A stretch of 64,000 nucleotides of DNA from the NCBI RefSeq assembly GCF_008806325.1, contig NZ_WACR01000002.1, positions 248,001 through 312,000 on the forward strand, in the 5' to 3' direction. Below the pieces are notes generated by a model, which saw only the letters and a program-made list of their open reading frames with translations, was not told the DNA's origin and ran no database searches. Position numbers and translations under genes: made by a program. How positions within the stretch are numbered: the stretch's first letter is position 1; each line of letters begins with the position of its first letter. This DNA comes from Salibacter halophilus (GTDB lineage: Bacteria; Bacteroidota; Bacteroidia; Flavobacteriales_G; Salibacteraceae). Shown piece by piece: positions 1,825-51,768 of this stretch.

Positions 1825-3894
1825 TTACCTAATCAAAATCACACTACCCATTTTCACTTCTTCATCACCGGATTGATTGACGAGCGAGATACGATAAGCA
1901 TAAGCTCCCTGCTGAGCCGCACTTCCGTCTTCTCCCGTTCCGTCCCAACCTCTTTCAATATTGGTCGATTCAAAAATGAGATTTCCAAATCGGTTAAAAA
2001 TCTGTAATCTGTACTGTCTAAAACCTCCAAAAGCTACAGTGGGCTTAAACTCTGGATTATGAATTCCTGTTGGCTTAAATGCATTCGGCACCCAAATTTT
2101 TGTATTCGATTTAAAACATTTCCTGTTCGAGTAAACCTGTAAACTATCCCGATTGGTAGCTCGAACGATGTAGCAAATCCTGTTGCCCTCTGTGATGTAA
2201 GTCTCTGTGTTTTCTTCAAAATTGCGCAACGTATCACCTGTAGTGAGAGTTTGGTTCATTGAGCCGGCTGCATTATCCGCCACGCGAAATAAGTCGTAGT
2301 GATCGAGCGAGTCGCCCAACACTCCCCATCCAATGTACTGAGTCCACGACAGCTGAGCATTGTAAGTTTGCTCATCAAAAGTTCCGTTCAGGTATATCGT
2401 TTTGGCCAAATTTGAAATAGAAATCGGGAAGTCGCACGAATCGTACATTACAACCCTGTACCAGTAATCGGTTTGGTTCACTTGTGCTGTTCTATCCTCA
2501 AACTCGAGGACCGGGTTCTGATCGTAAGGAGCGCGAGCAATTTCAATGAAAGTTCCATTGGAGTCTATCGCCCGTTCCAGAGCGTAGTAGTTCACAAAAA
2601 TCGAAGTATCGACTAAACACTCAACCTCAACAAAATCACTGTTGACAACATTTGCTCTTTGCAGATAGTGAATATTTGGCTGGAAAGAAGCAGCGCTTTG
2701 CGGACAAGCAACATTTGAGGTACTCGTCTTTGATCGATCTGTGGCATAACCAACGATCACGTAGCAATAGTTTTGCCGCACATCCACATTATCGTGCAAA
2801 TAAGTACTGTCAGATCCCGGGACCGAATCCAAAAAGACTGACGGTCCATTATTGAGTCTGTAATAAATCGCATATCCCTGTAAGTCATCCCAGCCCTGGT
2901 ATTGAGACCACTCTAACTGAACTTCTTCAGCGCAAAAATCAGGGAAAGTTTCAAGAAAAATCGATTGGTGCGCATCACTCCCCGCGCTGATATTGGCAGT
3001 TGCCGGATTTCCTTTGTAGCAGGTGTCAAATGAAGCGATAGCGTATTGCTGAGTTCCACCACTTCCTGATGCTGCAGAATCGATATATGTTGTGTTTGCT
3101 TTTCCGTAAACGGTATCGATAATAATCCATGCCGATGACGCATAATCGTAGTACAAGATTTGATAACCATCTGTGTCTCCTGCCTCGCTAGATTGCCAGG
3201 TCAGTTCGAGATTTCCGGTAGCTGTATCAACTGTAACGCTGTCCATGATTGGGATATCAGGTGAAGTGTTGTCCTCAAACAACTCTTCCACAATAGCTGA
3301 TACAGATCTACATCCGCTATTATCCTGCGTTTCCACTTTAAATGCAACATCCTCAGAACACACTTTGAAAGTCGTGTCGGTAAAAGTTTCAGTTCCGTAA
3401 GGTGTGGTTCCGACCAATACCCACGGCCCTCCTCCAATTCTCCTGAAAACTTCGTAATTACCAGAGTTGCTGGATAAATTGGGCACGATTTGCGGATTCC
3501 ACGTTATGGTAGCCGTAGTATCGGTTTTGTTTGATATTACCGGAAGCATCGTTTCAAACGTATCGCTAGAAACCTCTACATTTCCGCTGCCATCATCATA
3601 AACCGTTTTGACGTAGTAAAACTCAGAGTTTGTAGTAGCATTGGAATTTGTATTTGTGAAAGTCGTAGTCGCGAGGTTGGCAACAGATGTTTCGGTATAA
3701 GTGCCATTTCGTGAATTGCTCACACCCACCACATATTCGACAAATTCATTTGCCGGATCATTGGGCGCAATCCACGTGAGTACCACGTCACCGTTAGGCT
3801 GAACAGCAACGCAACGCAAATCTGGCGGGTCAACAGCTCCGCGAGCAAATCCAGCCAGTAAAAACATAATGGTCAGAACCGAAACTATGCGCAT
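1825..3894 (-). CDS. Secreted multi-FN3 protein with T9SS type B sorting domain
   Basis: A 689-residue protein with a signal peptide (MRIVSVLTIM to FARG), several fibronectin type III-like repeats recognisable by VxLxW strands and YYxYRV-like strands, and a C-terminal domain of about 90 residues with IWVPNAFKPTG, LQIFNRFGNLIFES and WDGTGEDG. That ending is the gliding-motility-associated (CHU_C, type B) sorting domain used by the type IX secretion system. It is probably an adhesin or surface fibre. An exact copy of the dispersed GGTCAGANCC word lies in its signal-peptide codons (3871-3880). Confidence 0.88.
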   Translation of the reverse strand: MRIVSVLTIMFLLAGFARGAVDPPDLRCVAVQPNGDVVLTWIAPNDPANEFVEYVVGVSNSRNGTYTETSVANLATTTFTNTNSNATTNSEFYYVKTVYDDGSGNVEVSSDTFETMLPVISNKTDTTATITWNPQIVPNLSSNSGNYEVFRRIGGGPWVLVGTTPYGTETFTDTTFKVCSEDVAFKVETQDNSGCRSVSAIVEELFEDNTSPDIPIMDSVTVDTATGNLELTWQSSEAGDTDGYQILYYDYASSAWIIIDTVYGKANTTYIDSAASGSGGTQQYAIASFDTCYKGNPATANISAGSDAHQSIFLETFPDFCAEEVQLEWSQYQGWDDLQGYAIYYRLNNGPSVFLDSVPGSDSTYLHDNVDVRQNYCYVIVGYATDRSKTSTSNVACPQSAASFQPNIHYLQRANVVNSDFVEVECLVDTSIFVNYYALERAIDSNGTFIEIARAPYDQNPVLEFEDRTAQVNQTDYWYRVVMYDSCDFPISISNLAKTIYLNGTFDEQTYNAQLSWTQYIGWGVLGDSLDHYDLFRVADNAAGSMNQTLTTGDTLRNFEENTETYITEGNRICYIVRATNRDSLQVYSNRKCFKSNTKIWVPNAFKPTGIHNPEFKPTVAFGGFRQYRLQIFNRFGNLIFESTNIERGWDGTGEDGSAAQQGAYAYRISLVNQSGDEEVKMGSVILIR

Positions 3895-17478: not shown

Positions 17479-18789
17479 ATGAAACAAGTAAATTTATTAA
17501 TCGTCCTCTTTGCCTTTTTATCAATTGGTAGTACTGCTCAAAATGACACACTAAGAGTGTTGTTTTTGGGGAATAGCTATACAGCTTACAACAACCTGCC
17601 TCAACTGGTATCAAATCTGGCAAATGCCGATAATAAAGAACTTATCTACGATAGCTATACTCCCGGAGGTACTTTGCTGTGGAATTTTGCTAATAATGAA
17701 AATACTTCACAACAGCTCGACACTACAGCAATGCACAAAATCAAGTCTGAAAACTGGGACTTTGTCATACTTCAAGAACAAAGTCAGGTCCCCACAATCG
17801 ATCACTACAGGTACAATTACATGTATCCTTCAGTTGAAAGCCTCGAAGATTCAATTTCACATTATAACCCATGTGCCAAAATAATGATGTTTATGACCTG
17901 GGGAAGGCAAAATGGCGGACAACAATGCTCACCAGATAATTATTGCAGTCCGGTCTTTGTCGATTTTAGCCACATGCAGGATTCACTGGAAAGTGCCTAC
18001 ATAGGAGCAGCTGAGGCTATTAATGCAAGTGTTGCACCAGTTGGAATTGCATGGAAAAACATCATCGAAAACACCAATTTAGTTTTACATTCATCTGATC
18101 AGAGCCATCCCAATTACAGGGGAAGCTATCTTGCAGCTTGTGTTTTTCATGCCGCTTTATGGAACTCGAGCCCTGTCGGAAATACTTTTACCGGCAACCT
18201 GAGTAATTCAGAAGCCAATTCTTTACAAACTATGGCAGACTCTACCGTTTTTGATGCTTATTCCAAATGGAACCTGGATGCTTATGAGGTAACAGCAGAC
18301 TTCAACTTTAATGTCTTTCACGATTCAGTAGCTTTTACAAATTTATCGCTAAGTCGGTCTCCGGTGAATTATTACTGGGATTTTGGAGATGGGAATACTG
18401 ATACCGCAAAAACGCCAACTCACACCTACAATTCAAACGGTAGCTACACCGTGAGGCTAATCGCTGATTATTGCTCGAGCCGTGATACTACAGAAAAAAC
18501 CATCAACATTTCAACAACCAAAAGGGTTGAGTATCACTTCAATGAAAACTTTGAAGTCTTTCCCAATCCGGCAACATCCAAAATTGTCATTCAAAATAAC
18601 GGAACAAATAAAGGCACTTTAGAGATCGAGCTGATGAATACTTTAGGTCAAATCGTTATTAGTCAAAGAGTAAATGCAGCACGAAATACCAATATCCAAC
18701 TATATGACTTGCCTACTGGTTTTTATATAATCAGTTTAAGAGATGAGTTTTCAGGATCAAAAGCAAGTTTTAAAATTTTGAAAAAGTAG
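17479..18789 (+). CDS. Secreted SGNH hydrolase with PKD and T9SS type A domains
   Basis: A 436-residue protein: signal peptide (to GSTAQ), an SGNH/GDSL-type hydrolase domain with GNSYT (nucleophile Ser33) and SDQSHPN (Asp207, His210), a PKD module (YYWDFGDGNTDTAKTPTHTY, near 270-345) and a type A sorting domain (FEVFPNPATSKIVIQ to the end). It is likely an extracellular esterase, for example a carbohydrate deacetylase, bound to the surface by T9SS. Family catalytic residues are present; the substrate is unknown. Confidence 0.87.
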   Translation: MKQVNLLIVLFAFLSIGSTAQNDTLRVLFLGNSYTAYNNLPQLVSNLANADNKELIYDSYTPGGTLLWNFANNENTSQQLDTTAMHKIKSENWDFVILQEQSQVPTIDHYRYNYMYPSVESLEDSISHYNPCAKIMMFMTWGRQNGGQQCSPDNYCSPVFVDFSHMQDSLESAYIGAAEAINASVAPVGIAWKNIIENTNLVLHSSDQSHPNYRGSYLAACVFHAALWNSSPVGNTFTGNLSNSEANSLQTMADSTVFDAYSKWNLDAYEVTADFNFNVFHDSVAFTNLSLSRSPVNYYWDFGDGNTDTAKTPTHTYNSNGSYTVRLIADYCSSRDTTEKTINISTTKRVEYHFNENFEVFPNPATSKIVIQNNGTNKGTLEIELMNTLGQIVISQRVNAARNTNIQLYDLPTGFYIISLRDEFSGSKASFKILKK

Positions 18790-37864: not shown

Positions 37865-38441
37865 TGCGATAGAGTGTTTGAAAAATGATTTTCAAATCTG
37901 TGAAGAAACTCTGCTTTTCAACATATTCACGCCCCAGTTTCAACTTAGCCGGCATGATCTCTTCCCTGTAAGTTTGCTCTGGATTATCGCTTTCAGCAAG
38001 CAGTTCGCTTTCATCGACAAATTTGAGCGATGCGTAATCCGTTAAGCCGGGTCTGACCGATAATACTTCACGTTGTTCTGGCGTGTATAGCTCAACATAT
38101 TTTGGCACCTCAGGCCTGGGTCCCACAACGCTCATTTCTCCTTTGAGAATGTTGAGTAGTTGAGGGAATTCATCGAGTTTGTACTTGCGTAGCAGATAGC
38201 CGATTTTGGTCACGCGAGGATCTCGGTGACCAACGGTGATTTGCAGCTTATCGCTATTGGGCCGCATGGTTCTGAACTTGTAGAGCCTAAATGTTTTGCC
38301 GTTTTTCCCAACTCTTGTTTGGCGGTAAAAAATTCCACCTTTTGAGTCTAACACAATTGCGAGAGCTATTACGGTCAGAACCGGAAATAGCAAAACGAGG
38401 ACGAGTCCTGCACTTACTAGATCAAACAGCCTTTTGAGCAC
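37854..38441 (-). CDS. Initiating phosphoglycosyl transferase (bacterial sugar transferase)
   Basis: A 195-residue monotopic transferase of the PglC type: N-terminal reentrant membrane helix ([31 protein letters not shown]), then [42 protein letters not shown]-like sequence (here [26 protein letters not shown]). It moves a phospho-sugar from a UDP-sugar to undecaprenyl phosphate, the first step of the polysaccharide repeat unit. It starts with GTG and overlaps the upstream aminotransferase gene by 20 bases. Two exact dispersed words lie inside it. Confidence 0.93.
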   Translation of the reverse strand: [195 protein letters not shown]

Positions 38442-39657
38442 GAGACTTCTCCATTACTTTTTCATACGCAGTAACTACAGCATTAATGACTGTATCGATA
38501 TCTTCATCACTCAAATCGTAATAAACGGGGAGTGAAATCTCATGCGTATAATTTTCAAAGGCTTTTGGGTAATGATCAACGTTAAAGCCCATTTTCTTGT
38601 AATAGGTAAGCATCGGTAATGGCTGATAGTGAACGTTCACTGCTACATCCTGCTCGTAGATTTCGTAGATGATCAAATTGCGCTCGTGTTCAGTAATACC
38701 TTTGATACGCAACATGTAAAGATGGTAGTTTGAAATCTTATCATCGGTTTCGTAAGTTGGCGTTATTGCCCAGTCGTTTTTCCCGAGTTCTTTCGTGTAG
38801 CGATCAAAGATGTATCTTCTTTTTGCTAGCGTATCTTCTTCGTATCGTTCCAGTTCAACTAATCCAATTGAAGCCAATATATCAGTCATGTTGTACTTGT
38901 AACCGGGCTCAATTACATCGTATCGCCAGCCACCTTTTTTCACTTTGGCAAAAGCATCTTTCGTTTGCCCGTGAAGTGCTTTTACATTTAGCTCTTTGTA
39001 GATTCTTTCGTGATCGAATCTATCTGGCATGTTGACTGCGAGTGCGCCACCCTCAGCAGTTGTGAGGTTTTTTACTGCGTGAAAGGAAAATGCTGAAGCA
39101 TCGGCTAAAACTCCAGAGTTTTGGCCTTTGTATTTAGCTCCAATACTGTGAGCTGCATCAGCCAGAATTAAAACTCGTCCTAGCAGTTCCTGCCTCTCAT
39201 TGTTGGGTGTAAAAAGTGAGCGAATTTTTTTGGATCTGACAAGTGAGTAGAGTTCGTCATAATCACATGGCATTCCGCCAACATCAACTGGTATAATGAC
39301 TTTAGTGCGTTCGGTAATCAGTGATTCAATCTTGTTGACATCTATGTTGAAGTCATCACCAACATCACACATGACTGGTGTTGCTCCTTTGTGAACAACA
39401 GCATTTGCGGTTGCTGTGTAAGTGTATGAAGGTATAATCACTTCATCCCCTTCTCCAACGCCAAACCAGCTAAGCATCAACTCCATACCGGCTGTACCAC
39501 TGTTGAGGCAAACAATTTTACTTGCTGTGGTAAACTCTGCGAGCCTCTTTTCAAAAAGTTTCGTTTTTGGGCCGGTTGTGATCCATCCTGATTTCAATGC
39601 GTCAACTACTTCCTCTACAATTCTATCATCTACCCTGGGGGGTGAAAATGGTATCAT
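38422..39657 (-). CDS. DegT/DnrJ/EryC1/StrS aminotransferase
   Basis: A 411-residue PLP-dependent sugar aminotransferase: MIPFSPPRVDDRIVEEVVDALKSGWITTGPKTKLFE, CLNSGTAGMELMLSW, VIIPSYTYTATANAVVHKGATPVMCDV, DAAHSIGAKYKG and SFHAVKNLTTAEGGAL with the PLP lysine. It transfers an amino group to a 4-keto or 3-keto UDP-sugar for the glycan repeat. A GGAG Shine-Dalgarno-like stretch precedes the ATG, unusual for this phylum. It overlaps the transferase gene downstream. Confidence 0.93.
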   Translation of the reverse strand: MIPFSPPRVDDRIVEEVVDALKSGWITTGPKTKLFEKRLAEFTTASKIVCLNSGTAGMELMLSWFGVGEGDEVIIPSYTYTATANAVVHKGATPVMCDVGDDFNIDVNKIESLITERTKVIIPVDVGGMPCDYDELYSLVRSKKIRSLFTPNNERQELLGRVLILADAAHSIGAKYKGQNSGVLADASAFSFHAVKNLTTAEGGALAVNMPDRFDHERIYKELNVKALHGQTKDAFAKVKKGGWRYDVIEPGYKYNMTDILASIGLVELERYEEDTLAKRRYIFDRYTKELGKNDWAITPTYETDDKISNYHLYMLRIKGITEHERNLIIYEIYEQDVAVNVHYQPLPMLTYYKKMGFNVDHYPKAFENYTHEISLPVYYDLSDEDIDTVINAVVTAYEKVMEKSRAQKAV

Positions 39658-39712: not shown

Positions 39713-40927
39713 TTAATCGCTGTATGTGAAGTACAAAAATGCGTTAAATATGGCGTAAAAAACGACTCCATCCTGCCGTTCAAAAATAGCTTCTGTCAAA
39801 CAGCTCATAGTTATGATAAAAACGAATAACGGGAAGATGAAGTTGGAATGAATATTTACTTTGAATAACGGGATTACTAGCATTCCAATGAGGGGTAGTA
39901 AACCGAGCAGGCCCAAAGCAACTCCAGATTGAACAAACTGGTTGTGTGCATTGAGGTGCCTTTCCTCTGCGTAATCGAAATTTTCTTTTTCCCATTTATC
40001 ATTCATCACCTCGCTTACATCCCCTGTTCCGTAACCTAACAATGGCTTTTCCTGAAAAAGCTCCCAACTGTACTTCCACAACAATGGCCTGGATCCAGAG
40101 CTGCTCTCCTCGTTCATTACATTTTCTGTAACGTCCTTAAACCGATCGACATACTTAATGCTAACGGCTATAAATCCTGCGGTAAAAACTACTACTAATG
40201 TGAGTGCTATAAGTGGATTTTTGAACCGTATGCGGGGAAATACTAAATAGCTAAATGCATAAGCTAGCAAAAAGCCTAGCACGATAATTCCCATCCTTGC
40301 GGATAGTTGGTAAACTGTGATAATCAAAAAAGTTAGCATCAAGTAATTGTGAAGCTGCACTTTTTCACGATTGTGAAAAATGAATATAATTAGAATCGCT
40401 ATTGCAAAGTTTACATAAATTGAAAAATATCCTGCATGCCTATAATAGCTGAGATATACGTAATAAAAAGACTCTACCTCACCAGATTTATAATATGAGA
40501 TTCCAGCGTACACAAAACTCACAATAGCTGCTAATACTGTAGCGTAGAGGAAAGTTCGCAAAAGCTCTGGCAATGTGAATTTATTGATGACGTTACTCGT
40601 TAAAACGACCCATGGAACGAGTAATAAACTCAGTTTTATCTCCAAATCAAAAAAACCACTACCCAGATCATCACTGTAGATAACACCTATTGCATGTGCG
40701 AGATAATAAGCTGAGAAAAGCCAAATAAAAAACTTTCGCTTTTTGTAGTAGTAAACTCGCTCGTGAAAAGGGTGAATGAAAATATTTGAAGCTGCAAAAA
40801 TGATGAGAGCCCAGGGCAACAATCGCTGCTCAAACGGCAACAAAAACACAACAAGATGAGCCAGGTATAAATTGACTTTCTTGAGATTGATATTTTTTAT
40901 TCCAATGGGTTTACTCAACTGAATCAA
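39713..40927 (-). CDS. O-antigen ligase/polymerase family membrane protein
   Basis: A 404-residue polytopic protein with about eleven membrane spans and a large periplasmic loop in the C-terminal third containing LLWKYSWELFQEKPLLGYGTGDV and HLNAHNQFVQSGVALGLLG, the Wzy_C/WaaL signature with the conserved His. It ligates or polymerises lipid-linked glycan in the periplasm. It starts 36 bases before the wecB stop. Confidence 0.88.
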   Translation of the reverse strand: MIQLSKPIGIKNINLKKVNLYLAHLVVFLLPFEQRLLPWALIIFAASNIFIHPFHERVYYYKKRKFFIWLFSAYYLAHAIGVIYSDDLGSGFFDLEIKLSLLLVPWVVLTSNVINKFTLPELLRTFLYATVLAAIVSFVYAGISYYKSGEVESFYYVYLSYYRHAGYFSIYVNFAIAILIIFIFHNREKVQLHNYLMLTFLIITVYQLSARMGIIVLGFLLAYAFSYLVFPRIRFKNPLIALTLVVVFTAGFIAVSIKYVDRFKDVTENVMNEESSSGSRPLLWKYSWELFQEKPLLGYGTGDVSEVMNDKWEKENFDYAEERHLNAHNQFVQSGVALGLLGLLPLIGMLVIPLFKVNIHSNFIFPLFVFIITMSCLTEAIFERQDGVVFYAIFNAFLYFTYSD

Positions 40928-40963: not shown

Positions 40964-42031
40964 CTAAATAGATAAAATAGCTTTTGCTATTTGCTTTGCA
41001 GCTTCGCCATTACCATATAGATCTGTATCAAAACTAACAGATTTTTTGAGCATCTCTGATGCTTTTTGCTTCAAATCATCCTCAGGCTTAACAAGCTGAT
41101 TTACTCCTTCTTCAACCAATTCAACCCATTCAGTTTGGTCCCTTAAGGTTAAACATGTTTTGTGGAAGAAAAAGGCTTCTTTTTGCAATCCTCCACTATC
41201 GGTCAGAACCATTGAGCAGTTTTTCAAAAGCTCAATCATGTCGAAATAGCCTACCGGATCGATTACTTTCACATTGAGATCTAAATTATACTCTTTAAGT
41301 TTTGCTTTTGTACGAGGATGTAGAGGAATCACAACTGGTTTTACTGATTCGTGAACCTCATTGAGGTTTTCCACAAAAGCTTGAAGTCTTTTGAGATCAT
41401 CGGTATTCTCTGCACGATGTAATGTGCATAGAATAAATTCATTTGGAACTGACTCTACTACAGAGGAAAGTTGAGCTGACTTTTCAGCATAATACAGTGC
41501 TGCATCATTCATGACATCTCCTGAACGCACAATTTCACAGTCAAAATTTTCATAGCCCTCATTCTTGAGATTTTTTATTGCCGAATCAGTAGGACAAAAG
41601 AGTATCGTTGATATTCTATCAGTCAATATTCGGTTGATTTCTTCAGGCATTTCCATATTGAAACTTCTCAAGCCTGCTTCAACGTGACCAACTTTTATAT
41701 GGAGCTTTTGTGCGGCAAGTGCTCCGGCAAGAGTAGAGTTTGTATCACCGTAAACCAAAACCAGATCAGGTTTTTCACTGATAAATACCTCTTCGAGTTT
41801 TTCGAGCATTCTGCCAGTCATAGCACCATGTCCTACTCCATTTATTTCAAGGTTATATTTTGGTTTTGGTATTTCCATTTCGTCAAAGAAAACATCAGAC
41901 ATGTTTTGATCAAAATGCTGACCTGTATGAACCAGTATTTCCTCTACACCGTCATATTTCTTTAACTCCCTGCTTACAACTGCTGCTTTGACAAATTGCG
42001 GACGAGCACCTACTACTGTTATAATTTTCAT
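40964..42031 (-). CDS. wecB: UDP-N-acetylglucosamine 2-epimerase
   Basis: A 355-residue non-hydrolysing epimerase: MKIITVVGARPQFVKAAVVSREL, LVHTGQHFD, VYGDTNSTLAGALAAQKLHIKVGHVEAGLRSFNMEMPEEINRILTDRIS, TDSGGLQKEAFFFHK. It makes UDP-ManNAc from UDP-GlcNAc for the surface glycan. Its ATG overlaps the stop of the upstream glycosyltransferase by four bases. An exact GGTCAGAACC word at 41201-41210 encodes the VLTDSGG motif. Confidence 0.95.
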   Translation of the reverse strand: MKIITVVGARPQFVKAAVVSRELKKYDGVEEILVHTGQHFDQNMSDVFFDEMEIPKPKYNLEINGVGHGAMTGRMLEKLEEVFISEKPDLVLVYGDTNSTLAGALAAQKLHIKVGHVEAGLRSFNMEMPEEINRILTDRISTILFCPTDSAIKNLKNEGYENFDCEIVRSGDVMNDAALYYAEKSAQLSSVVESVPNEFILCTLHRAENTDDLKRLQAFVENLNEVHESVKPVVIPLHPRTKAKLKEYNLDLNVKVIDPVGYFDMIELLKNCSMVLTDSGGLQKEAFFFHKTCLTLRDQTEWVELVEEGVNQLVKPEDDLKQKASEMLKKSVSFDTDLYGNGEAAKQIAKAILSI

Positions 42032-43263
42032 ATTGAAACAAGCTTTTTTAATTCATTGTTAAATGAAGCTGCTATTTTATTGCGATTGAATTTTTGATTG
42101 ACATAATTCCGCCCATTTCGACCGAGTTCTTCCAACTGGATCTGACCATTAGCTATTTTAACAAGCAATGAAGCTAACTCCTTGTAATTTTCTGGCTCAA
42201 ATGGAAGAGCGCACTGCCCCTCATCAGCAAATAATTCTTTAGCCTCGCCTTTTACACCCAGAATAACAGGGTTTTTCATAGCAGCATTTTCAAAGATCTT
42301 AGATGGAATAGCTCCTTCAAAAAGTGGCAGGTTCCTCAAAGGAACAATCGTTGCATCAACGGCTTTAACAACTTTAGGCATAATTGATTTTGGGACAGGG
42401 TCAAAAAAACGAACATTATTGAGATCCATTTTTTTTGAGAGTTCGAGGAGCTCTTTTTTAACTGGCCCATCTCCCATTAAAATGAATTTCAGCTCAGAGT
42501 GATTTTGAACCTCTTTAGCAGCTTTCAGGATCACCTCTAATCCCTGTGCATGACCAATTATGCCACCGTAAAACAAAAGTATGTCAGAACCGGAATAACC
42601 ATTTTCTTTCCTCCAGTCCGATTGTACTTCATCAGGGTTGTAATACGATAAATCAACACCATTTGGCAACCAGAAAGTTTTTAACTGTGGAAATCTTTTA
42701 TCGATATCATTAACTATCCCCTGAGTTTGACCTGTAATCAATGCTGCATTTTTATAGCACCATGCCTCTAGTCTATAAGCTAGATTTAAGAAGAGTTTAT
42801 TTTTTACAAGATCTAATTTTTCAGCACTTTCAGGCCAAAGATCAGATACATTAAAAATCATCTTTGCCTTTAGCTTTCTTGAGAGGAAAACTGCCGTAAA
42901 ACCAAGAAATAGCGGTGGAGATTCTACTAGTAAAAAGTCAAATTGATTCTTTTTAAAATTCTTGCTACCGTATTTCCAACTCGACCAAACAAAAGAAAAG
43001 TAGTTCAATAGTCTTTTTATTATTCCGCTATCCTTACTCACATAGATAGATGATCGGTGTACTGGAATGCCATCGATTTCTTCTCTTTTATTCTTCAGCC
43101 CGATGTACTCTTTGAATATTTCCATTTTGGGGTAGTTGGGCATGGCAGTCAGAACCTCAATGTGGTTCCCCTCATTTTTTAGTCTTACAGCTAACTCGTG
43201 AAGTCTATTTTGTGGAGCACCTGTTTCAGGAGGATAATATTGAGTGAGAATAAGGATTTTCAT
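42028..43263 (-). CDS. Glycosyltransferase family 4 (WbuB-like)
   Basis: A 411-residue GT-B glycosyltransferase: MKILILTQYYPPETGAPQNRLHELA at the N-terminus, FNVSDLWPESAEKLDL, LPNGVDLSYYNP and the C-terminal donor site FEGAIPSKIFENAAMKNPVILG. The closest recognisable type is WbuB, which often transfers FucNAc or a related sugar in O-antigen assembly next to wecB. It lies upstream of wecB with a four-base overlap. Confidence 0.9.
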   Translation of the reverse strand: MKILILTQYYPPETGAPQNRLHELAVRLKNEGNHIEVLTAMPNYPKMEIFKEYIGLKNKREEIDGIPVHRSSIYVSKDSGIIKRLLNYFSFVWSSWKYGSKNFKKNQFDFLLVESPPLFLGFTAVFLSRKLKAKMIFNVSDLWPESAEKLDLVKNKLFLNLAYRLEAWCYKNAALITGQTQGIVNDIDKRFPQLKTFWLPNGVDLSYYNPDEVQSDWRKENGYSGSDILLFYGGIIGHAQGLEVILKAAKEVQNHSELKFILMGDGPVKKELLELSKKMDLNNVRFFDPVPKSIMPKVVKAVDATIVPLRNLPLFEGAIPSKIFENAAMKNPVILGVKGEAKELFADEGQCALPFEPENYKELASLLVKIANGQIQLEELGRNGRNYVNQKFNRNKIAASFNNELKKLVSI

Positions 43264-43283: not shown

Positions 43284-44996
43284 CTAAAAAATGTTACCAT
43301 TGGCATTTTTCTCAGGAAAATAGAAATCCTCAACATCAAACATTCTTTTTAAAGAATAATTTGTAGGAAAAGTATATAGTTTAGATGTAGTAAATGACTT
43401 TACTTCAGCACTTTCCTTTTTTGAAGTGTATAACACTAATCTCAATTCGCTCAAGTCGTTCAAATTCAGACCTTCAACTCTTTTAAAACCAGCAGAGTGA
43501 AGCAATACCAAGTTAGAAGTATCAGGTTTTAATGGTGAATAATATCTCTCTGCAGAATTTCCATTTTTATCGATCAATAGGATTCTAACACTTCTGGGAC
43601 TGAAATTAGGCTTCACTTTAAATCCAAAATATTTAAACTTGGCTAAATCATTATTTTCTAATGTTAAATGAACAGAATGAGCATTTAAGTCAGCTGTATC
43701 ATTTTCTACAATGAAGTAGTCTTCATTCAAATACTCAACATTTTTATATTCATTAAATGAACCAAATTGAGAATATGAAGTATCAGGAGTTATGTCATTG
43801 AAAGATTCACCTGAAACAGATCCTATGTAGAAACTCTTCCCTGAATAATTCGCATAATAATCAACTGAATTTAACTCCCCAATATCAGAAAGTTTGACAG
43901 AATGAAACACTCGTTTGTGTATAGGAATATTAAATTCCCTGGTATTTTCAATATTAATAATGTCTTTATATTGATTAGTATAATTAAAAACAATTGACAT
44001 TGGGTAAGTATCAATCCAATAAGGATGAGGAGGACCTAAAACACTAAAGAATAATAAGCTATCACTGATTCTCTCAATTGGAAAATGTTTGATAATAATC
44101 TTTGATCTCTTCTCAATTTCACTTATCCAACTACTATCTTTGTCAATACTATTCAATGATGAAAATAGCATCATGTCATAAATTGCATAGTGTGTTGACT
44201 CTATTGTTTTAGGATTAAGCATGTAATAAGTCCAGGAATTATCTTTGTAATAATATTTTTCAGCCAATTTAAAAAAGGCTTGTTTCCCGCTATTGAAAAG
44301 TTTTTCAAGCTCTTCATCATTTGATAAAATAGATAATTGTTTTATCGCAATCATGCTAAATAGAAATCCATTTAACACATAATATGCATCTTCATTATTT
44401 GTATTAAAAGAAGCATATTCTAAGCACCAATCAGAACCATTTTCAGAAACTAAGCAGCCTCCCTGGAAAGTTGGCAGGGTCAGAGATTTTTTCACTCTAT
44501 TATATTCATAGAGGAAAGTTGAATCCTGAAAAATTTGATATCCTTTATAAAAGCTAATTGCAATAGTAGAATTAGCCATTCCAGACCACCAATTTCCCTT
44601 TTGAAATTCACGATGCTTAAAACCATAAGCATATGTTGTCACTTCTCCAGTGTCAATTCTATATTTATAATTCTTCAAAAAGTTTAGATATTCAAATCCA
44701 ATATCAAGGAGTACTGAATCATTTAGTTTGTCTCCATAATAAAGTGAATAATAAGCCTGTCTTCCAATATCCAGAGGGTGGTATTTTTTAAATAAAGTCG
44801 AATCTTTAAATGATGTTTTAATAATTTGATCGTTATACCCCCAAAAAAATGGAGTCCTGAAATCTAATTCCTTGTTTTTATCAAAATTAAACAGTTTCTT
44901 CTTCACAGAATCATCATTAGCACTTTTGCTGGAATAGGGAGAATCACAGGCGGAATAAAATGTGATAATAAAAAGTACTATTAATGTGTATTTCAT
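43284..44996 (-). CDS. D-glucuronyl C5-epimerase-like lipoprotein
   Basis: About 570 residues from the ATG at 44996, which opens a lipoprotein signal (MKYTLIVLFIITFYSAC). The central region carries the C5-epimerase C-terminal pattern: HPLDIGRQAYYSLYYG, NWWSGMANSTIAISFYKGYQIF, EYASFNTNNEDAYYVLNGFLFSMIAI and ESTHYAIYDMML. Relatives convert D-glucuronate to L-iduronate in heparan-type chains. A beta-rich C-terminal part follows. The location inside a polysaccharide cluster fits polymer modification in the periplasm or at the outer membrane. The AT content is markedly higher than in flanking core genes. Confidence 0.65.
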   Translation of the reverse strand: MKYTLIVLFIITFYSACDSPYSSKSANDDSVKKKLFNFDKNKELDFRTPFFWGYNDQIIKTSFKDSTLFKKYHPLDIGRQAYYSLYYGDKLNDSVLLDIGFEYLNFLKNYKYRIDTGEVTTYAYGFKHREFQKGNWWSGMANSTIAISFYKGYQIFQDSTFLYEYNRVKKSLTLPTFQGGCLVSENGSDWCLEYASFNTNNEDAYYVLNGFLFSMIAIKQLSILSNDEELEKLFNSGKQAFFKLAEKYYYKDNSWTYYMLNPKTIESTHYAIYDMMLFSSLNSIDKDSSWISEIEKRSKIIIKHFPIERISDSLLFFSVLGPPHPYWIDTYPMSIVFNYTNQYKDIINIENTREFNIPIHKRVFHSVKLSDIGELNSVDYYANYSGKSFYIGSVSGESFNDITPDTSYSQFGSFNEYKNVEYLNEDYFIVENDTADLNAHSVHLTLENNDLAKFKYFGFKVKPNFSPRSVRILLIDKNGNSAERYYSPLKPDTSNLVLLHSAGFKRVEGLNLNDLSELRLVLYTSKKESAEVKSFTTSKLYTFPTNYSLKRMFDVEDFYFPEKNANGNIF

Positions 44997-45057
44997 ACTA
45001 GTTAAAAATAAAGGGATTAAAACATCACTTTGAAAAACCAAAAAACACTACTGCTTT

Positions 45058-46173
45058 TTATGTGTTAATGAGTCTCCTGTAAAGATCTATTAAAACTTGA
45101 GACTCTTTTTGCCAGTTGAGCATATTTACCTCCCTTAACCCTTTTTCTACTCTTTCACTTAATTGCTTTTGATCACTAATCATATCGTCAATGCTTTTTG
45201 ATATCTTCTCACTATCTGAAGGGTCTGTAAATTTAGCAACACTATGAAAGTTCTCTTTCCAATACGCGATATCTGACATTAATATAGGTAAACCTGCAGC
45301 CATATATTCAAAGGCTTTATTTGGTAGAGCAATTTTATGGTTTTTGATGTCCTTATCAAATAGAATTAAACCAATGAGCCCTTTCTCTTTTAAGAAAGTA
45401 TAGACTTGCTTGCTATCCTTAAATCCCCAATAGCAAACCTTACTCCAACCTTTTGAACGTTTACATATGGTCATATAGTCCTTAGACTCCCACTCTCCAA
45501 ATAAGTGTAAAACTTTAATCTGATAAGATTTACCAACTGCATCAATCATCTCCTTTATATTCCTTGCTGAAGTAAGCCCTCCAGCATAAACGGCACCTTT
45601 TTCAGCCTTTTGCATTTCTGGACTAAGTTCTTCACCCTTAAAATTATCAAGTATCGGTAAGTTTCTGATAAGAACCTTTTCATTTTGAATATACCTTTCC
45701 AACAGTGGCTCTGCTACAGAAATTACTGCGTCCAACTGCTTTGAAACATTAAGTTCATATTTTTCAAATACTTTAGAAACGAAATTTCTAACAAATTGAA
45801 AAGGGATCCACTCTTTATCGATAATTGATGCAGGAGTATTTTCATGTGCATCATAAATCACCAACTTACCTAACTTTTTTAACTTTAGTGCTATAGGTAA
45901 TAGCTCAGGATCATGAATATGATAAAGCTGACTATTAATTTCAACTGCCCTTTGATAGCAATCTTTAGAAAGTTTAAAAATACGATCGATTCGAGATGAG
46001 GGTTTTCTAACACCATGTATTTGGACACCTTCAATTGTAACGTCTTTTTCCATTTGGCATATTAAATGGACGTCAAACCCCTTATCTACTAGTGATTTAC
46101 ACTCCTTTTGAAATATTCTTATGTCATTCCAGGAATGAACTGAAGTTATGTGACAAACACTGGTTTTCATCAA
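45058..46173 (-). CDS. Glycosyltransferase (GT-B, family 4 type)
   Basis: A 371-residue enzyme: MKTSVCHITSVHSWNDIRIFQKECKSLVDKGFDVHLI at the N-terminus, YHIHDPELLPIALKLKKLGKLVIYDAHENTPASI, VYAGGLTSARNIKEMIDA and the C-terminal LPNKAFEYMAAGLPILMSDIAYWKE donor site. The acceptor is unknown. It begins the run toward the epimerase and WbuB-like genes; a TATGTTTG element lies 28 bases upstream of its start. Confidence 0.88.
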   Translation of the reverse strand: MMKTSVCHITSVHSWNDIRIFQKECKSLVDKGFDVHLICQMEKDVTIEGVQIHGVRKPSSRIDRIFKLSKDCYQRAVEINSQLYHIHDPELLPIALKLKKLGKLVIYDAHENTPASIIDKEWIPFQFVRNFVSKVFEKYELNVSKQLDAVISVAEPLLERYIQNEKVLIRNLPILDNFKGEELSPEMQKAEKGAVYAGGLTSARNIKEMIDAVGKSYQIKVLHLFGEWESKDYMTICKRSKGWSKVCYWGFKDSKQVYTFLKEKGLIGLILFDKDIKNHKIALPNKAFEYMAAGLPILMSDIAYWKENFHSVAKFTDPSDSEKISKSIDDMISDQKQLSERVEKGLREVNMLNWQKESQVLIDLYRRLINT

Positions 46174-46261: not shown

Positions 46262-47008
46262 ATGACATACATGAAAGAAGAGGAAATCAATATAAGCTCA
46301 TTACTCAAGTTTATCGCAAAAACAATTAAGAGTCACTTTCTTCTTATTTTAATAGCTGGAATAAGTGGAGCTATTATTGGATACAGTTTTTATTCTTTCA
46401 AAACCCCTGTTTATAAAACATCTGCAATTTTTCAATCTACTCTATTACATCCCTTTGAAGTTCAAAGCACGGTAAATCAACTAAATGACCAATTAAAAAA
46501 CTCATCATCTGAATTTCAATCACTTAAATTTTGCAGAAATATTGAGATTATTGCCCCATCGAACATTAAACCTGAAGAGGATGATTTTGAGAAAAGCAAA
46601 ATGCACTTCATAACAATTGCAATTGAAACCGTCAATCCTGAAGCTTCATATAAAATGAGTAATGAATTAGTTTCAATTTTTAAAGATAACTCTAAGCTCA
46701 GTGAAATGTTTGAAAGCAGAAAAGCTGTTTTAACTAGACATATTTCGAGACTCGAGAAAAAGTTATCAGACGAGTCCCGCAATAATTTAAATAATGTTAC
46801 AATTCAGAATTTGTCTCAATCTGAAAAAAGTCTTTTCACTGAACTGGCAGAAGTAGAATTAGCTTTAAGTGAATTATCAATTCTCAAAGAAATCAAGCCC
46901 TTTTATACTCCAACTAATCGTGTATCAAGTCCTTCTCTATTTATAATTATTGGTGCTTTAGGAGTTATTATACTCACTTTCATTGTCCGCTGGATTATCA
47001 AGAGTTGA
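46262..47008 (+). CDS. Wzz-like chain-length determinant protein
   Basis: A 248-residue protein with a membrane span near each end (SHFLLILIAGISGAIIGYSFY and SLFIIIGALGVIILTFIV) and a periplasmic coiled-coil region between (LTRHISRLEKKLSDESRNN ... EKSLFTELAEVELALSELS), the plan of polysaccharide co-polymerases. No C-terminal tyrosine kinase is attached. It is the only plus-strand gene of the cluster and its last 51 bases overlap the convergent polymerase candidate. ATG at 46262 or 46271. Confidence 0.72.
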   Translation: MTYMKEEEINISSLLKFIAKTIKSHFLLILIAGISGAIIGYSFYSFKTPVYKTSAIFQSTLLHPFEVQSTVNQLNDQLKNSSSEFQSLKFCRNIEIIAPSNIKPEEDDFEKSKMHFITIAIETVNPEASYKMSNELVSIFKDNSKLSEMFESRKAVLTRHISRLEKKLSDESRNNLNNVTIQNLSQSEKSLFTELAEVELALSELSILKEIKPFYTPTNRVSSPSLFIIIGALGVIILTFIVRWIIKS

Positions 47009-48265
47009 TTTTGCAGTTTGGTTTAAAAAGATCATTGAGAATAAAATCAGGGCAAAACCACCATGAGTAAGCATTGACGTAAACAGTCCTGAGTTTAATA
47101 ATGTGAATATAAACAGGAAATATAGTCCGAAAAAACCAGCACTAATATTCAACGAATCAAAAAACATAAACATCAATGCAACAAGGACAGTGATAAAAAA
47201 TAATCCAACGTAACCAAGGTTAATAACAGAATCACTAATAAAACCACTATTTGCATTTACGCTCTCCTCTCCAAAATAAATAAGTCCAATCATCGAAGCT
47301 GGTTCAAATGGGTACGGATAATCAAAAAAGCTACTCATAAAGCTATAACCGTAATATAGATTTTCTCCTTCAAAAAAATCAAGATAAGCCTGATTTAAAT
47401 ATGCAGGAAGAAAAAACACTCTTCTAACCATTAGAGAGTTCAACATCAACTCACCATTCGAGGCAGCAATAGTTCCTATCAAAGTGAATACTAATATTCC
47501 ACTCAGGAGCAATGTAAACTGATAATCATGCTTTTTAACCAAAGCAAATCCTAAGACTACAACTGCTGAAAAAATAATACTCTTATGCGGTGTCAATGTA
47601 AACATGAGTATCATTAGTGTTACTCCTACTAAACCTAACCAGTAACGCTTATGCAAAAGATAGTAAGCTATCATCATAGGCAGTAAAACTTTAACATATG
47701 GAGATAGCAAGTACCCTAAAAAGGGAATATTTACATGTGAAACCTCTTTCCTTATCTCATAGATAGCCCCACTAAAAGTAAAAAGGCTTAAATCAAAATG
47801 AAAGTCATATATAATTGCGAATGGAATAAAGCCTATTACAGATAACAACAAAAAAACTAATGACTGCTCCCTGATAGATAGGATTGGCATTCTTAGGTTG
47901 GGTATTCGAAACATGTCCCACGATAATAAAGCTATAAATAATAAAACCATCAATGATGGAATAATGGTGTACTCCCTATGCATCCACAAAATAATATTGG
48001 GAATCAAAAACAGAATTTGAAAAACACCACTAACAATTCTTAAGAAACTCGACCCAATTGAAAACAATAAAAATAAGGATCCACCAAATAAGACTATAGC
48101 TATCAAAAGCTCTAAAACTGTGACCCCATCACTAGTAAAGCCAGAATATTCGTAATGCTTAACCAAAAAATTAGGATATAGAATATTCATCATTATAAAA
48201 AAGGCAACTAATAAAAGCAGTTGTATAAACCTATTTATACTTGTTTTCTTAATAACGTACTCCAT
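46958..48265 (-). CDS. Candidate polysaccharide polymerase (Wzy-like)
   Basis: A 435-residue integral membrane protein with about twelve hydrophobic segments, and a periplasmic loop near residues 265-330 (RRVFFLPAYLNQAYLDFFEGENLYYGYSFM). No close family motif is visible, which is usual for Wzy proteins. The position between the flippase and glycosyltransferase genes supports the call; the O-antigen ligase-like protein at 39713 is the alternative polymerase. Confidence 0.55.
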   Translation of the reverse strand: MEYVIKKTSINRFIQLLLLVAFFIMMNILYPNFLVKHYEYSGFTSDGVTVLELLIAIVLFGGSLFLLFSIGSSFLRIVSGVFQILFLIPNIILWMHREYTIIPSLMVLLFIALLSWDMFRIPNLRMPILSIREQSLVFLLLSVIGFIPFAIIYDFHFDLSLFTFSGAIYEIRKEVSHVNIPFLGYLLSPYVKVLLPMMIAYYLLHKRYWLGLVGVTLMILMFTLTPHKSIIFSAVVVLGFALVKKHDYQFTLLLSGILVFTLIGTIAASNGELMLNSLMVRRVFFLPAYLNQAYLDFFEGENLYYGYSFMSSFFDYPYPFEPASMIGLIYFGEESVNANSGFISDSVINLGYVGLFFITVLVALMFMFFDSLNISAGFFGLYFLFIFTLLNSGLFTSMLTHGGFALILFSMIFLNQTAKSTLDNPADNESEYNNS

Positions 48266-49839: not shown

Positions 49840-51174
49840 TCAAAGTTCCTTGAGCGATTTCCTAATACTGAGAGGTGAGGCTATTGCGATAATATTGAGT
49901 TTTTTCTTAACTACAATTGCACTGATTATATTCCATACTGCTGTACTAATTGCTGTTGAAATAGCTGCCCCTTCCATTCCGTACTCAGGAACGAGTATTA
50001 TGTTCAGAACCAGGTTTAATATAGCTGTCACAATTAAAACATACTGACTATAGACCTGGTTACCTGTCATTTGCAATAAGTACATTACAGATCCTGAAAG
50101 TGAATTCACCAACTGACCACATATTAATATTATGAGAGCTGACTTAGCTAAGGTGAAAGACTCTCCAAACAACCCTAAAAAGAAATCGCTGAATGAAATG
50201 ATCACAATTGTTACCGGAATAAGTGCTATAAAGACTAAGTTGGCACTATTAGTGACAATTGATTGCAGGTTTTTCATTTCTTTCATTTCATAAGCATGAG
50301 CCATTTTGGGTGCTGTAATGGCATTCACAGAAAAAAGTGCCAGTGTCGTAAGGTTAGCAATCTTCAGCGCTATATGATAATGACCAATACTTTCCTCACT
50401 TACATAAATTGCTAGAACAAACTGATCTGTCCATCCCATGATGAGGAACAACATGCCACTGATCAACATCGGGAAGCCGCGCTTGATGAGATCTGTATAC
50501 GAATACCTGTGCTCTGACCGAAACTTACCGAGTTGGGATTGCCTGTACCAAATAGCAAAGCTGTAAATACAAGTAAATACTAACGCAATATTGTATAACC
50601 AAAACATTACGGTAGGATATGGATACATCAATCCAATTGTAACAACCATTAAAATGGTGAGTCCTGAGGGAAAAATGCGATCGAGAGAAACATATTGCTC
50701 TACTTTTCCCTGTGATCTCAATGCCTCTCCATTCAACCTTGTAAGAGCTAATGGTATAATGCCGAGTATGGCAATTCTTAAATACGGAAGACTATTGGGT
50801 TTTTCAAAAACCTTTTCTGCAATATACGGTAGAACAAACCATCCTATTGATGTTAAGAGTATCCCCCAAACAAAAATCGAAAAGGCTGTTTTTTTATAAT
50901 CGCTTTTAAGTTTTCCCTGTTGGTCTTGAATTGGTTTTGAGGATGATATTTGAAGAAAAGAGATATCCAATCCTCCCTTCGCAATAGCAGCTCCAACCAT
51001 GAGTACCATCTGTCCAATTGCAAATAACCCAAATACTTCTGGACCATAGATTTGAGCTACGGCTATATTAAATAAATAAGTCAGCCCCATTCCAATAAGC
51101 CTGACAACAAGAGTTGAAAAGCTTTTACTTAATATACCAGTCTTTTGAACAGTGCTTTTATCGTTTGTAGACAA
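49840..51174 (-). CDS. Second Wzx-type flippase
   Basis: A 444-residue protein with about fourteen hydrophobic segments; GILSKSFSTLVVRLIGMGLTYLFNIAVAQIYGPEVFGLFAIGQMVLMVGAAIAKGGLDISFLQ at the start and paired repeats in the C-terminal half (MEGAAISTAISTAVWNIISAIVVKKKL) fit the oligosaccharide flippase family. Its sequence differs from the other flippase in the cluster, so they are not a recent duplication. The gap to the acetyltransferase stop is nine bases. Confidence 0.85.
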   Translation of the reverse strand: MSTNDKSTVQKTGILSKSFSTLVVRLIGMGLTYLFNIAVAQIYGPEVFGLFAIGQMVLMVGAAIAKGGLDISFLQISSSKPIQDQQGKLKSDYKKTAFSIFVWGILLTSIGWFVLPYIAEKVFEKPNSLPYLRIAILGIIPLALTRLNGEALRSQGKVEQYVSLDRIFPSGLTILMVVTIGLMYPYPTVMFWLYNIALVFTCIYSFAIWYRQSQLGKFRSEHRYSYTDLIKRGFPMLISGMLFLIMGWTDQFVLAIYVSEESIGHYHIALKIANLTTLALFSVNAITAPKMAHAYEMKEMKNLQSIVTNSANLVFIALIPVTIVIISFSDFFLGLFGESFTLAKSALIILICGQLVNSLSGSVMYLLQMTGNQVYSQYVLIVTAILNLVLNIILVPEYGMEGAAISTAISTAVWNIISAIVVKKKLNIIAIASPLSIRKSLKEL

Positions 51175-51183
51175 CTTATTGAG

Positions 51184-51768
51184 TTATTGGATTTTCTTCA
51201 CCACTCCATCTTTGAGAGAATACTCTTCACCACTTTCAGGACATTTAGCGACACCATCCTCATCAAAGTGCAGGCGGTGACCGTATTCACTCATCCAGCC
51301 TATTTGTTTGGCCGGATTTCCAACTAAAAGTGCGTAATCAGGAACGGTTTTAGTCACAACTGCTCCTGCTCCAATGAATGCGAATTTTCCAATATCGTGA
51401 CCGCAAACAATCGTTGCATTAGCACCTATACTGGCTCCGCGTTTCACTGTTGTTCTTTCGTATTGTCCTCTGCGAACTACATTACTTCTGGGGTTTGTGA
51501 TGTTGGTGAACACGCAACTGGGACCTAAAAAAACATCATCTTCACAATTGACACCTGTGTAGATAGATACATTGTTTTGAACTTTCACATTATTACCCAA
51601 ATGCACATCAGGAGATACAACTACGTTTTGCCCGATGTTGCATTTTTCTCCCAAAACACAATTTTTCATCAAATGCGAAAAGTGCCAGATTTTAGTTCCG
51701 GCACCAATTTCACAACCTTCGTCAACTACTGCGGTTTCGTGCGCAAAATATTTTTGGTCAGATCCCAT
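51184..51768 (-). CDS. Left-handed beta-helix acetyltransferase (WbpD/WlbB-like)
   Basis: A 194-residue hexapeptide-repeat enzyme: IGAGTKIWHFSHLMKNCVLGEKCNIGQNVVVSPDVHLGNNVKVQNNVSIYTGV, then SIGANATIVCGHDIGKFAFIGAGAVVTKTVPDYALLVGNPAKQIGW, followed by a short CPESGEEYSL tail. It matches the N-acetyltransferases that complete UDP-2,3-diacetamido uronic acids. A GGTCAGATCC word abuts the start codon (51756-51765) and encodes Gly-Ser-Asp-Gln after Met. The gene follows rny by one base. Confidence 0.9.
   Translation of the reverse strand: MGSDQKYFAHETAVVDEGCEIGAGTKIWHFSHLMKNCVLGEKCNIGQNVVVSPDVHLGNNVKVQNNVSIYTGVNCEDDVFLGPSCVFTNITNPRSNVVRRGQYERTTVKRGASIGANATIVCGHDIGKFAFIGAGAVVTKTVPDYALLVGNPAKQIGWMSEYGHRLHFDEDGVAKCPESGEEYSLKDGVVKKIQ

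Follow-up and report, generated by a model that had tools for sequence, protein, structure and literature searches.

A putative exported glucuronyl C5-epimerase family protein encoded in a Wzx/Wzy-type polysaccharide cluster of Salibacter halophilus

Within a Wzx/Wzy-type polysaccharide cluster of Salibacter halophilus, a minus-strand gene (43284..44996) encodes a GLCE-like protein of 570 amino acids that is probably an exported uronate C5-epimerase of the D-glucuronyl C5-epimerase (GLCE; PF06662) family, acting at the level of the polymer and most likely anchored to a lipid. Positions are those of the window, by which we mean the whole stretch of 64,000 nucleotides that was analyzed, and the protein is called the epimerase below for brevity. 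We infer its activity, direction, substrate, and place of action.

Family membership and catalytic residues

The original prediction placed the protein among D-glucuronyl C5-epimerases on the strength of three motifs, all of which are present as written: HPLDIGRQAYYSLY at residues 73 to 86, WWSGMANSTIAIS at residues 136 to 148, and VLNGFLFSMIAI at residues 207 to 218. A profile search agrees with that placement. PF06662 (D-glucuronyl C5-epimerase C-terminus) matches residues 122 to 296 (44109..44633, minus strand) at 88.4 bits against a curated cut-off of 23.3 (E 5.4e-25), and Pfam, searched up to E 0.01, returns no other family, nor the AlgG/AlgE mannuronan C5-epimerase type, whose fold is a beta-helix. 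Searched against the PDB on its own, the sequence matches zebrafish GLCE at E 9e-4; a profile of eight sequences (the window protein and seven relatives) reaches E 2.4e-39 for human GLCE and 1.4e-38 for the zebrafish protein. Because the PF06662 match is joined by these profile matches, the motifs are more than chance, and membership of the GLCE family is supported by sequence.

Five residues of human GLCE are described as key in the available portion of PMC13308652: E499, Y500, N510, Y560, and Y578. L-INS-i, applied to 31 rows (29 bacterial, the window protein included, and 2 animal), shows all five to be identical in the window protein and in its relative from genome G013 (L003/L046), the only relative whose match covers almost the full length. 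They correspond to E193-Y194 (44415..44420), N209 (44370..44372), Y258 (44223..44225), and Y270 (44187..44189), all on the minus strand. The same pairing comes from an HMM-HMM alignment of the window pair with twelve rows of the family that include two animal ones, and from an alignment of sequences to an HMM built on those twelve rows. Default MAFFT on eight rows disagrees at one position and sets Y273, not Y270, against Y578; we prefer Y270 since it is conserved and Y273 is phenylalanine in the relative. The active-site tyrosines expected from the earlier reading are thus found as Y194, Y258, and Y270, aligned with Y500, Y560, and Y578.

All five residues are present in 22 of the 29 bacterial rows; the departures are L005, L006, L019, L023, L024, L059, and L060. 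The alignment leaves out 16 weak PF06662 loci (L025 to L040), matches for which no locus was returned, and L053, L056, and L061, which are further copies of the L004, L005, and L006 places. Elsewhere, the MAQG motif of GLCE reads MANS in the window protein. Conservation of the five catalytic residues is supported by these alignments, and it predicts GLCE chemistry for the epimerase.

Predicted fold and alternative activities

Structure prediction was less discriminating than sequence. An AlphaFold model of the whole protein built from two sequences was poor (pLDDT 44), and a two-sequence model of the catalytic part alone, which was mostly helical, reached a pLDDT of 59 and a pTM of 0.64. Foldseek with the latter model gave no match under E 0.001, and the Foldseek and VIA-align matches span a range of barrel types and a few other folds. 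By VIA-align, human GLCE (6hzz) scores Z 11.3 over 204 residues with an rmsd of 4.2 and 14% identity. Cellobiose 2-epimerases and a lanthipeptide synthetase (11.7) are level with it, and a GH76 mannanase heads the list at Z 13.2. The Foldseek matches include the polysaccharide lyase structures 5no8 and 5noa. The weak model therefore resembles GH76 and AGE-type enzymes no less closely than it does GLCE. Of the alpha/alpha-barrel anticipated for this protein, what holds is that GLCE is among the matches of a modest model; what does not is its separation from other barrels. The modeled fold class fits GLCE and by itself does not identify function.

Two other activities deserve consideration in light of these matches. 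The protein could be a polysaccharide lyase that uses the same proton-abstraction chemistry to trim the exported polymer, a reading helped by the first step that epimerases and lyases have in common and by the resemblance of the fold model to other barrels, a lyase among them. We regard it as improbable, however, given that Pfam finds no lyase family, that no other sequence match comes near the one to GLCE, and that the five GLCE residues are kept. A divergent barrel of the GH76 or AGE kind, noncatalytic or hydrolytic, that only binds or cuts the polymer is very improbable. GH76 mannanases do appear as weak profile matches and supply the best structural Z score, but the eight-sequence profile finds them only at E 3e-5, far weaker than GLCE, the catalytic residues are retained, and the catalytic part is more conserved than the C-terminal part. 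Between the window protein and its relative, identity is 45% in the catalytic part, 26% in the C-terminal part, and 36% overall, as expected if catalysis is kept. A C5-epimerase of the GLCE family thus remains the preferred reading.

Domain layout and export signal

The PF06662 match is preceded by 121 amino acids and followed by 274. The short stretch before it leaves no room there for the beta-hairpin and beta-sandwich of the animal enzymes. The C-terminal part (residues 346 to 570, about 225 amino acids; 43287..43961, minus strand) has no assigned family: Pfam up to E 5 returns none for it, and the PDB yields no sequence match under E 0.16.

The 570-amino-acid product begins at an ATG at 44996, upstream of which an open reading frame tool had placed a TTG start at 45041. 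The ATG is supported by the relative, whose frame is open only from about the equivalent position. From this start, the N-terminus is MKYTLIVLFIITFYSAC, which resembles an export signal. The putative signal peptide (44946..44996, minus strand) has good n- and h-regions and ends in a lipobox-like ITFYSAC17, with C17 preceded by alanine at -1, serine at -2, and tyrosine at -3; the usual lipobox consensus does not include tyrosine at -3. The earlier claim of a lipobox therefore stands for the export signal, which appears clear by eye, and falters on the lipobox itself, which is imperfect, so that lipid anchoring is likely and not certain.

A simple lipobox rule is passed by 4 of the 29 bacterial PF06662 rows (the window protein, L018, L021, and L022), and several strong members have no signal peptide by eye. 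As judged from sequence, export extends beyond the window protein and its relative. Five strong members without an evident signal peptide by eye are L013, L015, L016, L019, and L024, and in L013, L019, and L024 the PF06662 gene directly adjoins glycosyltransferase-like genes. By analogy with Agl32, such proteins perhaps act before export.

The polysaccharide cluster

The epimerase gene is the second of a seven-gene run. Read along the minus strand, the cluster begins after rny with a WbpD/WlbB-like hexapeptide acetyltransferase (51184..51768; 226 bits to 3mqg, which we take to be WlbB, with a NeuD-type protein as its best NCBIfam match, under cut-off), a second flippase-like protein of the MatE/Polysacc_synt kind (49840..51174), a Wzx-type flippase (PF13440; 48273..49544), and a polytopic membrane protein that is probably the Wzy polymerase by eye and has no family match (46958..48265). 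A structure paper on WlbB is in the reference list of PMC10059132. On the plus strand there follows a Wzz-like chain-length protein (46262..47008), so read by eye from two transmembrane segments and its position and also lacking a family match. The minus-strand run then comprises a GT4 glycosyltransferase (45058..46173), the epimerase, a second GT4 glycosyltransferase (42028..43263; WcaI-like under cut-off), a 2-epimerase (40964..42031), a Wzy_C/O-antigen ligase-type polymerase or ligase (39713..40927), a sugar aminotransferase (38422..39657), and an initiating sugar-phosphate transferase (PF02397; 37854..38441). The aminotransferase is closest to the capsular-polysaccharide aminotransferase 6ewj; its identification as WbpE was rejected, as none of its 17 structure matches at E <= 1e-30 is a chain named WbpE. 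The location that the original prediction gave, a polysaccharide cluster with diacetamido-uronate-type enzymes, is borne out by the WbpI-type and WbpD-like genes.

At 29.8%, the G+C content of the epimerase gene is the lowest of the thirteen genes measured between 37854 and 53311 (39.7% for the window), which fits acquisition and is no proof of it.

Two related genomes of one genus, G013 and G020, share this cluster, which is flanked in both by rny and a transglutaminase-like gene; the epimerase is present in G013 and absent from G020. The Wzz-like and GT4 genes of G020 lie about 150 bp apart on one contig, and searches of its whole genome (an assembly that is 83% complete) returned no epimerase match. 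A translated search of seven clusters from the family found the epimerase in G013 only, and three of the family's clusters (L074, L077, and L078) have a WbpI-type gene and no epimerase. Since the same cluster occurs without the gene in a related genome, the epimerase seems to provide an optional tailoring step within a cluster that is otherwise conserved. It lies after the GT4 gene in the window and before it in G013, an order that implies either independent placement or rearrangement. The GT4 homologue adjoining the epimerase gene in G013 (L044:11206-11335) has an in-frame stop near its start and is either disrupted or the product of an assembly error.

Elsewhere in the window, 1825-3894 and 17479-18789 encode type B and type A sorting domains of the type IX secretion system (T9SS), from which we infer that the organism probably has such a system. 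In Porphyromonas, the lipopolysaccharide that anchors T9SS cargo is fed by the Wbp pathway, according to the available portions of PMC4031482 and PMC13086638. By analogy, the cluster could be similar in role.

Relatives and distribution

In a midpoint-rooted tree from which L006 was left out, the window protein groups with its relative, with support, and a stem of 2.36 changes per column separates the two from the other 28 rows. This long stem, together with MANS in place of MAQG, means that the substrate may differ widely from that of other members.

Of 395 genomes sampled from the phylum, 30 have a PF06662 match over cut-off, in many cases a weak one; among 14 control genomes, two have a match and one is over cut-off. 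Relatives of the epimerase itself are fewer. Among 42 genomes of the order, two (one being the organism's own) encode a full-length relative and a third has a partial match; in the class sample, 13 of 395 genomes match, full length only in the window's own; and among a sample of 100 relatives, four matched, with G013 the only full-length case besides the window. A contig scan with two poor peptide patterns recovered only the known relative (DIYR01000094.1, Flavobacteriales bacterium UBA6049), and two viral scans found nothing.

Ten of 16 other PF06662 neighborhoods contain at least one glycosyltransferase, flippase, aminotransferase, 2-epimerase, or related gene of the query set, and six contain no polysaccharide gene by the queries used; the family is often, and not always, found in polysaccharide clusters. 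In none of the 16 is a TuaD-type dehydrogenase the best match. Just one (L087) contains a 2-epimerase in which the three residues diagnostic of WbpI are all present, and L084 and one 2-epimerase in L086 have only the tryptophan. As WbpI-type genes occur in one neighborhood of 16, linkage to the Wbp pathway is not general, and the connection between PF06662 and that pathway is suggestive only. In L087 (genome G166), a separate PF06662 protein is encoded beside WbpI-type, TviB-like, aminotransferase, and WbpD-like genes, and this protein has alanine at the position equivalent to Y500.

The candidate substrate

The product of 40964..42031, encoded two genes downstream of the epimerase, exceeds the cut-off of TIGR00236 in NCBIfam and is named WecB on that basis, and the original prediction counted a UDP-ManNAc enzyme in the cluster. 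Assignment as WecB/UDP-ManNAc was rejected, however, on structure matches and diagnostic residues. In the PDB, 8sxv and other UDP-2,3-diacetamido-2,3-dideoxy-glucuronic acid 2-epimerases match at 389 bits, and UDP-GlcNAc 2-epimerases are weaker (299 bits for 4neq and at most 178 for the rest, including 138 for 1f6d, presumably the E. coli enzyme). Ala18, Tyr96, and Trp307, in place of Leu/Met, His/Gln, and Arg, mark the diacetamido enzyme of Thermus thermophilus in the available portion of PMC10622841, and these served as the WbpI/WlbD test. The Thermus numbering fits 8sxv at all eight positions checked; the window enzyme has the same eight residues, and all three diagnostic ones are present as A16, Y94, and W302. 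It is also the only PF02350 match in the genome. The enzyme is better read as a WbpI/WlbD-type UDP-GlcNAc3NAcA 2-epimerase, and a UDP-ManNAc enzyme is unlikely.

Homologues of WbpA, WbpB, WbpE, WbpD, and WbpI all occur in the genome, the last two types within the window. A WbpB/WlbA-like gene on contig C13 is 73% identical to a query from L074 that itself matches 3q2i/3q2k, which we take to be WlbA; at this site (C13:77933-79956) two such dehydrogenases are adjacent, with 42% and 73% identity to the query. Contig C8 carries a WbpE-like aminotransferase (L041; WbpE at 348 bits, behind a first match to 7b0d at 375 bits that is named scyllo-inositol transaminase), a TviB/WbpA-like dehydrogenase, and, adjoining the WbpE-like gene, a UDP-glucose dehydrogenase of the TuaD type, both dehydrogenases being under their equivalog cut-offs. 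UDP-ManNAc3NAcA synthesis thus looks complete by homology, with its last enzyme encoded two genes from the epimerase, and UDP-GlcA is probably available too, given the dehydrogenase type on C8. A second surface-polysaccharide cluster lies on the same contig (L042; C8:193000-212000), with TviB- and TviC-like proteins, a PseB-type dehydratase, a flippase-like protein, and a sulfotransferase-family protein.

We envisage that a repeat unit would be built on undecaprenyl diphosphate, flipped by Wzx, and polymerized by Wzy in the periplasm. The Tyr/Glu site of the epimerase would take the proton from C5 of a uronic acid within the polymer, and reprotonation from the opposite face would turn some D-uronate residues into their L C5-epimers. 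Wzy polymerization takes place outside the cytoplasm, which, together with the export signal, would fit epimerization of the finished chain, as by AlgG with alginate.

With WbpI-type and WbpD-like genes in the cluster, the genetic context points to ManNAc3NAcA at least as much as to glucuronate and iduronate. Our leading guess, held with somewhat less than even confidence, is that the substrate is ManNAc3NAcA, whose C5 epimer is L-GulNAc3NAcA; we lean this way on account of its dedicated enzymes in the cluster, although a polymer can draw on both acids, and the location of the WbpA-, WbpB-, and WbpE-like genes on other contigs weakens the case for a diacetamido sugar in this polymer. Conversion of GlcA to its C5 epimer IdoA is the second guess, a possibility well short of even, and another acid, such as GlcNAcA or GalNAcA, is a rather unlikely third. 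The narrower proposal that the protein is a D-glucuronyl C5-epimerase making iduronate from polymer GlcA, a sub-case of the preferred reading, is doubtful. In its favor, GlcA is the substrate of characterized GLCE-type enzymes in the available portion of PMC13308652, and the genome encodes the TuaD-type dehydrogenase. However, a genome-wide PF03721 search places no nucleotide-sugar dehydrogenase within the window, which weakens the GlcA reading, and the uronate enzymes that the cluster encodes are WbpI- and WbpD-like. Moreover, all six other genomes of the family that were examined have PF03721 matches, whether or not they encode the epimerase, and such matches are therefore a poor guide. The iduronate residues put forward originally are thus not specifically supported, the uronate enzymes of the cluster being those for ManNAc3NAcA. 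Returning to the leading guess, we tentatively suggest, as a possibility that most of our confidence does not yet favor, that a GLCE-family enzyme converts polymer-bound 2,3-diacetamido-2,3-dideoxy-D-mannuronate to L-GulNAc3NAcA after Wzy polymerization and outside the cytoplasm, a step that related bacteria would gain or lose with a single gene. This would be an alginate-style epimerization of an amino-uronate by a heparin-type enzyme.

Significance and comparison with known systems

The PF06662 family and its chemistry are already known. A survey of putative prokaryotic C5-epimerases by Raedts et al. (2011), cited in PMC4432689, may mention relatives. Among the open-access papers listed, judged by titles, openings of abstracts, and passages of a few, none describes an exported GLCE-type protein that has such a C-terminal part, nor a GLCE-type gene in a Wbp-linked Wzx/Wzy cluster, and among the matches listed no title or opening of an abstract describes a C5-epimerase for diacetamido-uronates. 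With one cluster that has the gene and another that does not, the locus provides a concrete comparison from which exported GLCE-type action on a native polymer could be read by NMR. If ManNAc3NAcA is the substrate, the family, so far associated chiefly with heparin biosynthesis, would widen in substrate range. A possible genetic basis would also emerge for gulo-configured diacetamido-uronates, among them those of Listonella anguillarum and V. ordalii, which are of the L form. Their occurrence in the glycans of these organisms is described in the available portion of PMC3210612.

Close known counterparts are human and zebrafish GLCE (6hzz and 4pw2), whose catalytic domain is homologous and whose five key residues are all matched. 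In the animal enzyme, beta-hairpin and beta-sandwich domains precede the helical domain (PMC13308652, available portion), whereas the window protein has no room for them before its PF06662 match and has instead its C-terminal part and a bacterial export signal. PMC13308652 presents RED65_08024 of Bermanella marisrubri, which also features in PMC4432689, as the only bacterial glucuronyl C5-epimerase identified, and reports that it aligns with GLCE and has the same mechanism. Halobacterium Agl32, also according to PMC13308652 as available, is a prokaryotic uronate C5-epimerase of surface glycan assembly that does not have the GLCE residues and whose substrate is a lipid-linked glycan still to be moved across the membrane. 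The window protein resembles it as a prokaryotic protein of a presumed surface glycan but keeps the GLCE residues and carries an export signal.

All five enzyme types of the wbp/wlb pathway for ManNAc3NAcA have homologues in this genome, and a PF06662 gene goes unmentioned in the available portions of the two pathway papers (PMC10622841 and PMC4031482). AlgG epimerizes alginate in the periplasm (PMC4432689, available portion). AlgG and AlgE differ from the window protein in fold, and no such family appears in its Pfam search, but in epimerizing mannuronate at C5 in the polymer and outside the cytoplasm they would be the nearest analogues in function should ManNAc3NAcA prove to be the substrate.
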